NCBI RefSeq assembly: GCF_000170915.1 | Contig: NZ_ABCT01000005.1 | Span: forward strand, 124,001-188,000 | Direction of reading: 5' to 3' | DNA length: 64,000 nt | Source of the DNA: Limnobacter sp. MED105 | GTDB taxonomy: Bacteria; Pseudomonadota; Gammaproteobacteria; Burkholderiales; Burkholderiaceae_B | In this document: one piece after another, positions 44,509 through 48,053 of the stretch | Layout: each line of letters begins with the position of its first letter | Numbering within the stretch: the first letter of the stretch is position 1 | Notes under the pieces: model-generated | Told to the model about the DNA's origin: nothing | Databases searched by the model: none | The model's input: the letters and a program-made list of their open reading frames with translations, nothing else | Translations under genes and position numbers: made by a program

Positions 44509-45819
44509 ATGGAAGTGCTGATTCTGATTGGTCTTATTGTGACCAATGGCTTGTTTGCCATGTCCGAAATTGCGCTGGTTACGGCCAGAAAGGCGCGTTT
44601 GGTGAAGTTGGCTGCAGAAGGCGACAAATCCGCTGCGGTTGCGCTTAAGTTGTCTGAAGATCCCACCAAGTTTTTGTCGACTGTGCAAATTGGTATCACA
44701 TCGATTGGCGTGCTTAGCGGTATTGTCGGTGAGGCTGTATTGGCCAAACCACTGGCGCTCTGGCTGCAAACCTTCGGCCTGGAAGTGGCGATGACAGATG
44801 TGGTGTCGACTGCCATTGTGGTTGTTGGTGTTACCTATGTGTCAATTGTGGTCGGTGAACTGGTGCCCAAGCGTTTGGGGCAAATCAGCCCGGAGGTCAT
44901 TGCCCGCTTGGTGGCAAGGCCCATGCAAATTCTGGCCATCGCTACACGCCCCTTCGTCATGTTTTTATCTTTTTCTACCCGTGGTTTATTGCGCATTATG
45001 GGTGTGAAAGAAAACACGGACAATGGTGTGACTGAGGAAGAAATTCACGCCATGCTGGACGAGGGTTCGGTTTCAGGCGTGATTGAAAGCAGCGAGCACA
45101 CCATGTTGCGCAATGTGTTCCGCTTGGACGATCGCCAACTGGGTTCACTCATGATCCCCCGTTCAGATGTGTTGTATCTGGACATTCGCCTGCCTCAGGA
45201 AGAGAACCTGAAACGGGTGATTGAGTCGGAGTACTCGCGCTTCCCGGTGGTAGATGGCAATCTGGACAACCTGATTGGTGTTATTCACGCCAAGCAGGCT
45301 TTGGCTTACGCCGCGCAGGGCAAGATGCCCGACTTTTCCAGTAATTTGCAGCAGTGCGTGTTTGTGCCTGAAACCCTGACGGGTATGGAGCTGCTGACCC
45401 AGTTCCGCAGCAATAACATGGACATTGCTTTTGTGATCGACGAGTACGGCGAGCTTGAAGGCATTGTGACCCTGCATGATTTGATGGAAGCCCTAACCGG
45501 CGAATTTACCCCGCACAACAAGGAAGATTCTTGGGCAGTGCAGCGTGACGATGGATCCTGGTTGCTCGACGGCGCCATTGCCATTCTGGAACTGAAAGAC
45601 ACCTTGAACATCAAGAGTGTGCCAGAAGAAGAAAAGGGCCGTTACCACACCCTGAGCGGCATGGTGATGCTGCTGACTGGGCGCTTGCCAGCCACCGGAG
45701 ACACGGTGGATTGGGAAGGTTGGCGGTTTGAAGTGGTGGATATGGACCAAAAACGAATCGATAAAATTTTGGCCTCACCGATCAAGGAAGGCGGCGAACA
45801 GGTCGATGAATCGGCCTAA
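44509..45819 (+). CDS. CNNM/CorC-family membrane protein (hemolysin-like, CBS domains)
   Basis: The 436-residue protein has an N-terminal CNNM (DUF21) membrane domain beginning MEVLILIGLIVTNGLFAMSE, with helices to about residue 160, a CBS pair (SGVIESSEHTMLRNVF, then RFPVVDGNLDNLIGVIH, about 190-330), and a CorC_HlyC transporter-associated domain at the end (DGSWLLDGAIAI, VDWEGWRFEVVDMD). Relatives are named hemolysins or CorB/CorC and take part in Mg2+/Co2+ export or resistance. The substrate here is unknown. It has its own strong promoter, a long structured leader and a terminator. Confidence 0.9.
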   Translation: MEVLILIGLIVTNGLFAMSEIALVTARKARLVKLAAEGDKSAAVALKLSEDPTKFLSTVQIGITSIGVLSGIVGEAVLAKPLALWLQTFGLEVAMTDVVSTAIVVVGVTYVSIVVGELVPKRLGQISPEVIARLVARPMQILAIATRPFVMFLSFSTRGLLRIMGVKENTDNGVTEEEIHAMLDEGSVSGVIESSEHTMLRNVFRLDDRQLGSLMIPRSDVLYLDIRLPQEENLKRVIESEYSRFPVVDGNLDNLIGVIHAKQALAYAAQGKMPDFSSNLQQCVFVPETLTGMELLTQFRSNNMDIAFVIDEYGELEGIVTLHDLMEALTGEFTPHNKEDSWAVQRDDGSWLLDGAIAILELKDTLNIKSVPEEEKGRYHTLSGMVMLLTGRLPATGDTVDWEGWRFEVVDMDQKRIDKILASPIKEGGEQVDESA

Positions 45820-45833
45820 GGCAGCAAACCAGC

Positions 45834-45866
45834 AAAAAAGCCTCAAGGAAACTTGAGGCTTTTTTG
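45834..45866. terminator. Bidirectional terminator between CorC-like and CsgG-like genes
   Basis: GCCTCAAG and CTTGAGGC close on a GAAA tetraloop, with six A residues before and six T after, so it can stop transcripts from both sides. It lies 15 bases after the CorC-like gene stop and about 28 bases beyond the CsgG-like gene stop. Confidence 0.93.
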
Positions 45867-45893: not shown

Positions 45894-47006
45894 TTAACGA
45901 ATTTGTGGACGGTTGCCCCACAGCAGCTTTTCTTGCATTTCGCGGGTGGTATTGCTGGTTGATTCCTGAGACGTTGCAGGCGCAGCACCGCCACTTCCAA
46001 ACAGGCCTTTTAATTCAGTGACTTCACTTTGTGATGATGCGGTTGCGGTGTTCTCATTGGCAGCTTCGCGAATGATTTCACCGGTGTAGGGGTCAATCAC
46101 AACGCTGGGGTCTTGCTTTGAGGCCGTTGAAGCGGGTGGTGGTGTGAGCACAATGGGCTTGTTGCGCAATTCGCCGGATTTCGCTGTACTTAACCTGGCA
46201 CAGCTTTGCGCTGACACATTGTTCATCTCGGTCAGCATGTTGAACACCGCATGCTCAATCACCATGCGAACCCCTTTTTGAATGGGTTCTTGCGTTCTTT
46301 CAGCAGCGCTGACATCGACGAGCCCATCGCTGAACAACCGGAAGTACCCACCATTCAATTCAGTGCCAATAATCTGTTTTTGAAGGCTTTGCGTATTCAC
46401 CACTTCAAGCGTTTTGGTATTCACCACACGCAGGTCGACTGCCACGTTCATGACAAAGTAGCGGGCGGCTGCGCCAATGAATCGAATGGATGACTCCAGG
46501 CTGCCACTGCGAATGTTGTAATTCACCTCGGTGATGCCACCCACGATGTGATAATCAGAGCCGGGCAGGGAGCCTGAAAAAATTTGCCGATGCGCTTTGC
46601 TGTCCGGGTTGTCAGTGATGAGTTTGTTGTCGGCGTACTTCAATTCCATGTCGGCGATGGTAGTGTCGAACCGCTCGACCATTGGGACCCCGGTTTTTGC
46701 CAGAGCAGAAATCACCATCAAGGCTGCACCTTGTGTGATTCGTTTTCCGTTGACCAGGTCTTCTTTGCCTGTGAAGTCACTGACCCGCCCCACGGCAAAG
46801 CGTTTTGCATTGGGGCCTCGCCCGCCTACCAAGGGTTTCAGGCATTCAAGTGCAGGGCTGTAGCGGGTTGTGTTTTCCACTACGCTTGCCCCATCAAAGG
46901 GGCTGACGTACTCCGCTTCACTGAAAGAGGGGAGCGTTGTACAAGCACTGGCCGATGCGGCAATCACCGAGATCAATGCAAACTTTGGAAGCGGGTAGCG
47001 GAACAT
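45894..47006 (-). CDS. CsgG/HfaB-family outer-membrane secretion lipoprotein
   Basis: The 370-residue precursor from ATG 47006 has a lipoprotein signal, FALISVIAASASAC, with lipidation at Cys22. The body matches the CsgG/HfaB family: KRFAVGRVSDFTGKED, QGAALMVISALAKTGVPMVE, and the long transmembrane-hairpin region GGITEVNYNIRSGS to RYFVMNVAVDLRVVNT. A Ser/Thr-rich tail of about 90 residues after residue 280 exceeds E. coli CsgG (277 residues) and resembles the longer HfaB. CsgG forms a nonameric secretion channel for curlin-like subunits. It lies 41 bases after the HfaA-like gene. A TTG 21 bases upstream is an alternative start. Confidence 0.87.
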   Translation of the reverse strand: MFRYPLPKFALISVIAASASACTTLPSFSEAEYVSPFDGASVVENTTRYSPALECLKPLVGGRGPNAKRFAVGRVSDFTGKEDLVNGKRITQGAALMVISALAKTGVPMVERFDTTIADMELKYADNKLITDNPDSKAHRQIFSGSLPGSDYHIVGGITEVNYNIRSGSLESSIRFIGAAARYFVMNVAVDLRVVNTKTLEVVNTQSLQKQIIGTELNGGYFRLFSDGLVDVSAAERTQEPIQKGVRMVIEHAVFNMLTEMNNVSAQSCARLSTAKSGELRNKPIVLTPPPASTASKQDPSVVIDPYTGEIIREAANENTATASSQSEVTELKGLFGSGGAAPATSQESTSNTTREMQEKLLWGNRPQIR

Positions 47007-47047
47007 AGTGGGCCTTTGTGTATTCAAGAGCAGTAAGTAACTTGGAA

Positions 47048-47368
47048 TCAGAAGCCGCCGTCGATGGAGGCGTTTTGAGAGCCGTTGTTGATCTGGGTGG
47101 CGGTAATGACAACGGTGTTGTTGTTGCCTTCGGTTTGTACATTGATCAAGTTGCCGATGGCCGTGGAGGCGAAGCCCCAGCCAGGTGATTCAACTTGGGT
47201 GCGGTTGAGGTTTGCGTCGCGGCGTGTGCCTGCAGGGGAGTCGATGTCGGTGACACTGCGCATGCCAAACGGTGTTTCGAATGAGCTGACATTGCCCTCA
47301 AAGGTTTGGGCATTTGCGCTGCTGAAGCCAAGGGCAAGGGTGGCAATACAAAGCTTGAGTAAATTCAT
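47048..47368 (-). CDS. HfaA-like holdfast-anchor/curlin-like protein
   Basis: The 106-residue precursor starts with MNLLKLCIATLALGFSSANA, a signal peptide. The mature 85 residues read NVSSFETPFGMRSVTDIDS, then RRDANLNRTQV and ASTAIGNLINVQTEGNNNTV and VITATQINNGSQNA. This is the pattern I know from Caulobacter HfaA: an S-F-x-x-P-F-G start, a R-D-A-N-x-N-R block and an AIGN-N-N-NTVV-x-x-TQ-NNG repeat similar to curlin. Anchoring of a surface polymer via a CsgG-like pore is likely, by family knowledge and its neighbour. The long frame from 47455 adds a non-family stretch. Confidence 0.75.
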   Translation of the reverse strand: MNLLKLCIATLALGFSSANAQTFEGNVSSFETPFGMRSVTDIDSPAGTRRDANLNRTQVESPGWGFASTAIGNLINVQTEGNNNTVVITATQINNGSQNASIDGGF

Positions 47369-47412
47369 TCGATGGTTTCCTTGATGTTTCCGGATGGTGT
47401 TAGCGGGGCGGT

Positions 47413-47455
47413 TTGCCCCAAGCGACCATTGGCTGTAGGTTGTCGCCCGGGGCAA
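47413..47455. repeat. Strong intercistronic hairpin between HfaD-like and HfaA-like genes
   Basis: TTGCCCC at 47413-47419 pairs with GGGGCAA at 47449-47455, and GCGACC/GGTTGTCGC inside extends the stem with a bulge. No T tract follows on either strand. In curli-type operons such hairpins can set subunit ratios through mRNA stability; this is inference. Confidence 0.65.
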
Positions 47456-47465
47456 GAAAGTTCAA

Positions 47466-48053
47466 TTAAGGACGCGCGCTGCCAATTGAAATATTGTTGC
47501 CAACTGCAGTGGCTGAAGCTGTCAGGCGAGTGGGGTCCCAACGGTATTCAGCCACGGCCACGTTGTCGCTGACGTTGCACTGGGCCACTGACAATTCAGC
47601 CAGGCTGGCATTGTCAAGGTTCAGGCTGAAGTTGTTGCCAATTGAAACGGCTTCAATAAGTACTTCGCCGGTTTTTGATGTGCTGCGCTGTGACAGGTTG
47701 ACCGAGGCCAGTTGATCGCCGTAGTTGCTTTGCGACACGTGGCGAACAGGCACAGTGGATGAGGATGTCAGCGAAATGGCAATGTTGTTGCCCACCGCTT
47801 GGGCTGAACCAGTGATGTTGCCGTTGTCGCGCATGACTACGTTTTGCAAATCGACGATCGCGGCGTTGGTACCGGTGTTGCTTTGAATGAAAATGCCGTT
47901 GTGGTTGTCGCTTAAATAATAGCTGCTGTCGAAATCAATGTTGGCATCGATTTCAACTTGACAGTCATTGCCTTGGCAGGTGGCGAAGGCGACTGAGTGC
48001 ATGGACAGCATTGCAGCCAGGATGGACAACGATTTTAGGGATTGCTTCATCAT
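47466..48053 (-). CDS. HfaD-like/curlin-repeat secreted protein
   Basis: The 195-residue precursor has a signal peptide (MMKQSLKSLSILAAMLSMHS then VAFA). The mature part is Asn/Ser-rich with three copies of a motif A-x-x-[VI]-G-N-N-[IF]-x-[IL]: AQAVGNNIAISL near residue 87, AVSIGNNFSLNL near 138, ATAVGNNISIGS near 185. Such repeats suggest stacked beta-strands as in curlins and HfaD. There are three Cys residues in the mature protein, two near the N-terminus. It is the first gene of the presumed hfaD-hfaA-hfaB-like unit, with a GGAG ribosome site at good distance. Assignment as HfaD is tentative. Confidence 0.65.
   Translation of the reverse strand: MMKQSLKSLSILAAMLSMHSVAFATCQGNDCQVEIDANIDFDSSYYLSDNHNGIFIQSNTGTNAAIVDLQNVVMRDNGNITGSAQAVGNNIAISLTSSSTVPVRHVSQSNYGDQLASVNLSQRSTSKTGEVLIEAVSIGNNFSLNLDNASLAELSVAQCNVSDNVAVAEYRWDPTRLTASATAVGNNISIGSARP

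Follow-up and report, generated by a model that had tools for sequence, protein, structure and literature searches.

A rearranged and shortened hfa gene trio in Limnobacter, a putative outer-membrane export and attachment system

In Caulobacter, the products of hfaA-hfaB-hfaD are the proteins that fix the holdfast to the cell, and the targeting of HfaA and HfaD to the outer membrane and the surface depends on HfaB; the holdfast polymer itself is exported by HfsDAB, and HfsD is required for the proper localisation of HfaB (PMC6707917). The same article describes the anchoring of polysaccharide adhesins to cells as largely uncharacterised (PMC6707917), and HfaE is named as a further Caulobacter anchor protein in another article (PMC6372794). 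The window analysed here, a stretch of 64,000 nucleotides from Limnobacter sp. MED105, contains a locus that resembles the Caulobacter crescentus anchor in having homologues of all three proteins, in that its HfaB is a CsgG-family lipoprotein, and in a motif common to HfaA and HfaD. It differs from that anchor in its D-A-B gene order, a shorter D protein, an extra tail of about 100 residues on HfaB and the lack of a convincing HfsB. Furthermore, to our knowledge no stalk is known in Limnobacter, unlike in Caulobacter. With the curli system CsgG-CsgA of Enterobacteria the locus has the pore family of HfaB in common, whereas curlin repeats are missing and csgE/F are not found in the locus. The amyloid protein FapC of Pseudomonas has three repeats, as does the Limnobacter D protein, whose predicted fold matches it moderately; the exporter of the Fap system differs from the CsgG type.

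The preliminary description had placed three tandem genes on one strand, and the open frames bear this out: three secreted-protein genes occupy positions 45894–48053 on the minus strand in the order hfaD-like, hfaA-like, hfaB-like. The hfaD-like gene (47466–48053, minus strand, refined start at 48053) encodes 195 amino acids with a Sec-type signal and three repeats of about 49 residues, and the hfaA-like gene (47048–47368, minus strand) encodes 106 amino acids with a Sec-type signal and one related motif near the C-terminus. The hfaB-like gene (45894–47006, minus strand) encodes a CsgG-family lipoprotein of 370 amino acids with a C-terminal tail of about 100 residues; the ATG at 47006 is preferred as its start, the listed TTG at 47027 being less likely. 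The signal sequences of D and A were assigned by eye, as were the signal sequence followed by a cysteine at the N-terminus of B and the purine-rich stretch, similar to a ribosome site, before each ATG of the trio. Gaps of 97 bases (D–A) and 41 bases (A–B) separate the genes. The trio is flanked by nadA (from 48145, plus strand) and, on the other side, by a CNNM/CorC-type gene (44509–45819, plus strand) convergent with hfaB. Between these two converging genes lies a terminator-like hairpin of the intrinsic type (45834–45865), flanked by A and T runs, with a folding z of -5.29 and 0 of 200 shuffles folding equally well (76 nt, minus strand). It is absent from the output of a consensus terminator scan, and probably serves as the transcription end for both converging sides. 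A scan for sigma-70 promoters found none.

The window HfaB matched the NCBIfam family NF037935 (HfaB) with an E-value of 4.4e-85 and 285 bits (cut-off 300; query read from the TTG at 47027), a cut-off that HfaB exceeds in 0/16 Limnobacter genomes. The window HfaA matched NF037934 (HfaA) with 4.6e-11 and 43.1 bits (cut-off 50; query without its first methionine). As these scores lie just below the curated cut-offs, both proteins are regarded as homologues and not as certified equivalogs. The CsgG domain is present in HfaB (Pfam PF03783, 1.8e-17, 63.8 bits, cut-off 20.8), which also matched CsgG structures at 1.9e-8. Comparison of the profiles of 16 Limnobacter-type A proteins and 15 Caulobacterales HfaA proteins by hhalign gave a probability of 99.1%, with none of 60 column-shuffled Limnobacter profiles scoring as high; against the sequences of solved structures the Limnobacter A profile had no credible match (best 0.74). 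A conserved motif, E-K-[LM]-L-[WY]-G-x-[RK]-P, stands at the end of the C-terminal tail of HfaB (window 45894–46200); it was seen in all 12 Limnobacter-type tails compared, three further loci having been removed by a filter, and is absent in the sister genome (locus L064).

The window D protein itself had no credible match to a Pfam or NCBIfam family, NF037936 (HfaD) included. That family was matched in two of the 16 genus genomes, the L. litoralis orthologue at 7.7e-8, and by three of 15 aligned D orthologues, the best at 3.4e-8 and below the cut-off. When 15 Limnobacter-type D proteins were set against 16 HfaD proteins of the Caulobacterales type by hhalign, the probability reached 96.6%, and again 0/60 column-shuffled Limnobacter profiles attained the observed score. 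At the level of sequence, the window D is recognised as a relative of HfaD indirectly, by way of the orthologue matches and the profile comparison. The three HfaB-, HfaA- and HfaD-like assignments made at the outset thus stand, and the outcomes named beforehand as refuting them, small proteins without a link to HfaA or a lipoprotein unrelated to CsgG, were not observed with NCBIfam, Pfam and hhalign. The repeat unit of D, present in three copies of about 49 residues, reads Q-x-N-x-G ... A-x-A-[VI]-G-N-N, and HfaA has one such element; the pattern A-x-A-h-x-N occurs once in 14 of the 16 Limnobacter-type A proteins and in none of the other two. By sequence, the motif Q-x-N-x-G / A-x-A-h-G-N is common to HfaA and HfaD. 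In profile comparisons the probability for D with A within Limnobacter was 57.7% in one run and 59.7% in another, that for HfaA with HfaD within Caulobacterales 94.2%, and that for Limnobacter D with Caulobacterales HfaA 82.8%, with only 0.7% for Limnobacter A and Caulobacterales HfaD.

HfaB was found in 16/16 Limnobacter genomes and all 16 loci read D-A-B, as do 15/15 Limnobacter-type loci (L050–L064), a set that overlaps largely with these genomes and includes one sister genome. As had been noted from the window, this order is not that of Caulobacter: among 65 other loci (L065–L129, nearly all alphaproteobacterial by title), 57 read A-B-D, 54 of them as called and three if an over-extended B frame is allowed. 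The counts were made with separate family profiles for A and D, because after iteration the A and D profiles had come to collect each other's proteins (149 and 179 hits). By these family profiles the remaining eight of the 65 loci are without one or two of A, B and D, some of them at contig ends; L067 and L118 have an incomplete trio although their flanks extend for about 6 kb in both directions. The D protein, counted from the first start codon, has 194–297 amino acids in Limnobacter (195 in the window) against 397–492 in the other loci, where it is about twice as long; one fused D frame of 909 amino acids lies outside that range. Of 12 loci examined, 10 retain nadA as a neighbour (nine from Limnobacter itself, plus the sister genome G012), as do 15/15 in the overlapping set L050–L064. 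The CNNM/CorC-type neighbour is missing at some loci, for example in L. litoralis. In 21 comparisons with the window copy (three genes in each of seven loci) dN/dS was 0.035–0.31, values that are rough because dS exceeded 1 in 12 of the 21. With all three genes in one order in 16/16 genus genomes, together with the low dN/dS, the pattern is not due to chance, and the D-A-B trio is a fixed genus-wide trait of Limnobacter. Among the matches listed in a search of the open-licence literature, no paper on a Limnobacter hfa locus was found.

The closest named loci are those of Limnobacter, in agreement with the betaproteobacterial host proposed beforehand, and strong HfaB matches are scarce outside the genus. 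In a sample of 200 genomes of the family HfaB matched in 66 at 1e-3. Besides the window's own genome, 12 of them had strong matches, at 1.4e-65 or better (nine Limnobacter genomes together with G012, G102 and G122); the rest were CsgG-like and none was better than 1.1e-16. G102 and G122 have HfaB alone in common with the Limnobacter locus. At 1e-20, HfaB was found in 2/399 genomes of the order sample, both of the genus, in 1/369 of the class sample, the window's own, and in 18/398 of the phylum sample, the 17 besides the window's own all lying outside its class.

It is concluded, with a probability of roughly 70%, that hfaDAB encodes a small system dedicated to export across the outer membrane and serving attachment, a core of export and attachment that is shared in part by two of the alternatives considered below. 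By homology, HfaB would form the pore as a CsgG-type lipoprotein, and by analogy with Caulobacter, HfaA and HfaD would reach the periplasm via Sec and then the surface through HfaB. On the surface the two proteins may stack into a compact beta-rich complex, the structure having been predicted for D only; an HfaA with a single motif may, however, fail to polymerise. The complex would serve attachment either as a short adhesin itself or as a base to which a surface polymer distinct from the classical holdfast is fixed. The genus keeps hfaDAB at one fixed site, the link to the holdfast secretion genes of Caulobacterales having presumably been lost or never been present.

A true holdfast anchor, in which a polar adhesive polysaccharide made by a Wzx/Wzy-type locus is tethered by HfaDAB as in Caulobacter, would account for the conservation of all three anchor proteins. 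Poly_export matches occur in 16/16 Limnobacter genomes, and the Wza-like gene of the window genome lies inside a large EPS-type locus (labels given by eye). However, the Poly_export frames fall into three size classes (221–298, 383–396 and 779–968 amino acids), none of them common to all genomes, and Asticcacaulis HfsD had an identity of only 23.6–28.4% to ten Limnobacter Poly_export frames. The sole Poly_export match of the window genome is on another contig than the trio, which fits the earlier statement that the window lacks genes for holdfast polysaccharide. A two-row HfsB profile matched in 11/11 alphaproteobacterial control genomes (1.4e-11 to 3.4e-142, two of the controls having supplied the rows), whereas in Limnobacter it matched in one of 16 genomes, marginally (7e-4) and partially, in a 511-aa frame on a Poly_export contig; it had no match in the window genome or in the sister genome (0/1), and a single HfsB query found nothing in 16 Limnobacter genomes. 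An HfsG search, run with no control, gave just three weak matches among the 16. Within 12 stretches examined, HfsA and HfsF queries had matches of 22–26%, and HfsB, HfsC, HfsG and HfsH none at 1e-3. At the scale of whole genomes, the absence of hfs refers to HfsB, the one hfs protein searched with a control. A classical hfs set is thus unlikely in Limnobacter, which probably makes other surface polysaccharides, and the true holdfast anchor is itself an unlikely explanation. As a key gene of holdfast-sugar secretion is apparently missing, the trio probably acts as a small lone adhesin or as the holder of a different polymer.

The alternative of a curli-like fibre, in which a long amyloid fibre destined for a biofilm matrix leaves through HfaB, with HfaA as nucleator and HfaD as subunit, is suggested by the CsgG homology of HfaB, by the repeats and by the predicted fold of D. 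The AlphaFold2 model of D had a mean pLDDT of 70.5, with block means of 76–90 over residues 51–190 and below 50 over residues 1–50, and contains three strands per repeat in three repeats. Compared with the PDB by Foldseek, its top match was the amyloid FapC (E 9.1e-5, probability 0.99, TM-score 0.24); the entry at rank 2 was again FapC, but with E 0.15 and a probability of only 0.03. CsgA came fourth (0.24). In a VIA-align comparison FapC alone among 168 chains exceeded Z 5 (Z 5.2, below 8; rmsd 4.2, 108 residues). Foldseek against viral models gave none at E 0.001 (best 1.2e-3). No credible match to the sequences of solved structures was obtained with the D and HfaD profiles (best 0.54 for D, none for HfaD), and the FapC chains were matched by neither profile up to E 10. 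The model suggests a FapC-like fold, the match being moderate and not proof, and D is predicted from it to be a stacked beta-repeat protein. The model of HfaA, whose structure the preliminary description had proposed to predict, was uninformative (pLDDT 47.2). The curlin link put forward at the same time was not upheld: Pfam Curlin_rpt had no match in A or D of the window (up to E 10), in a set of 16 A proteins (up to E 1) or in 16 Caulobacterales HfaD proteins. The three-gene locus, flanked by nadA and the CNNM/CorC-type gene, contains no accessory gene; moreover, D has only three repeats and A one motif. A long fibre is considered improbable, to about the same degree as the holdfast anchor.

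The history of the locus was approached through a tree of HfaB. Removal of duplicate loci left 91 rows, to which five outgroup rows were added; halving of most alphaproteobacterial loci reduced the set to 68, and the final tree has 62 rows, after exclusion of the wrongly framed outgroup rows L022 and L026, of the remaining three CsgG-like outgroup rows and of L037, which has a long branch. Limnobacter and its sister genome group together in a single clade (99/97), adjoined by an alphaproteobacterial clade of Caulobacterales-type and Geminicoccaceae-like rows (98/92), and the branch joining the two has support of 97/78. The deep order is unsure because of several long branches. With that proviso, the tree gives no support to direct transfer from present-day phages.

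Related genes were also seen on phages and plasmids. In jumbo phages of Caulobacter and Brevundimonas (L035, 4302–6667; L036, 4357–6962) HfaB is followed by a repeat protein similar to HfaD (1.3e-17 and 2.2e-15 with the D profile), and the small gene before HfaB has no match to the HfaA profiles; the surface of an infected host might be modified in this way. The part of the CcrColossus phage paper drawn on here mentions neither CsgG nor HfaB (PMC3556154). In two IMG/VR contigs (L130, 4438–7180; L131, 4512–7107) HfaB is likewise followed by a D-like protein, and the small secreted protein before it is HfaA-like in L131 (7.1e-7) and marginally so in L130 (0.033–0.039). On plasmids of Photobacterium and Vibrio (L033, 7953–10026; L034, 7932–9864) HfaB is accompanied by a repeat protein with weak similarity to D (1.4e-4 and 1e-3) and by one more small secreted protein. 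An HfaB of 471–475 amino acids with a long C-terminal part is found on a Variovorax plasmid and in two genomes of the window's family (L032, 7322–14113; L048, 7028–9139), and on the Variovorax plasmid the gene after it encodes an 'S-layer family' protein of about 1570 amino acids with weak similarity to D (0.002). Such proteins may well receive the label CsgG/HfaB family from NCBI pipelines, as those on plasmids do.

A recent horizontal acquisition from Caulobacterales or their jumbo phages, with little present use, for which the HfaB/HfaD modules borne by plasmids and by phages of Caulobacter and Brevundimonas and the near-absence of strong HfaB elsewhere in the order (the three further genomes of the denser family sample aside) might be quoted, is very improbable, since the Limnobacter and sister clade stands beside and not inside the alphaproteobacterial one, and the genes occupy one chromosomal site, have a GC content of 0.52–0.55 against 0.54 for the window and show low dN/dS, so that any acquisition would be old.

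A broader and tentative proposal is held to be possible and still short of an even chance. The HfaABD anchor may be one use of an older, mobile, stand-alone adhesin composed of a CsgG-type pore and FapC-like beta-repeat proteins, of which Limnobacter, jumbo phages and Vibrionaceae plasmids would keep forms without the classical holdfast, the polysaccharide having been wired to it later in Caulobacterales. Anchor proteins that apparently occur without the classical holdfast secretion genes would offer a natural test of what the proteins alone do in anchoring, and the three-repeat HfaD would be a smaller target for structure work. Limnobacter is often found with algae and particles, and the hfaDAB trio would provide a candidate attachment factor for this genus.
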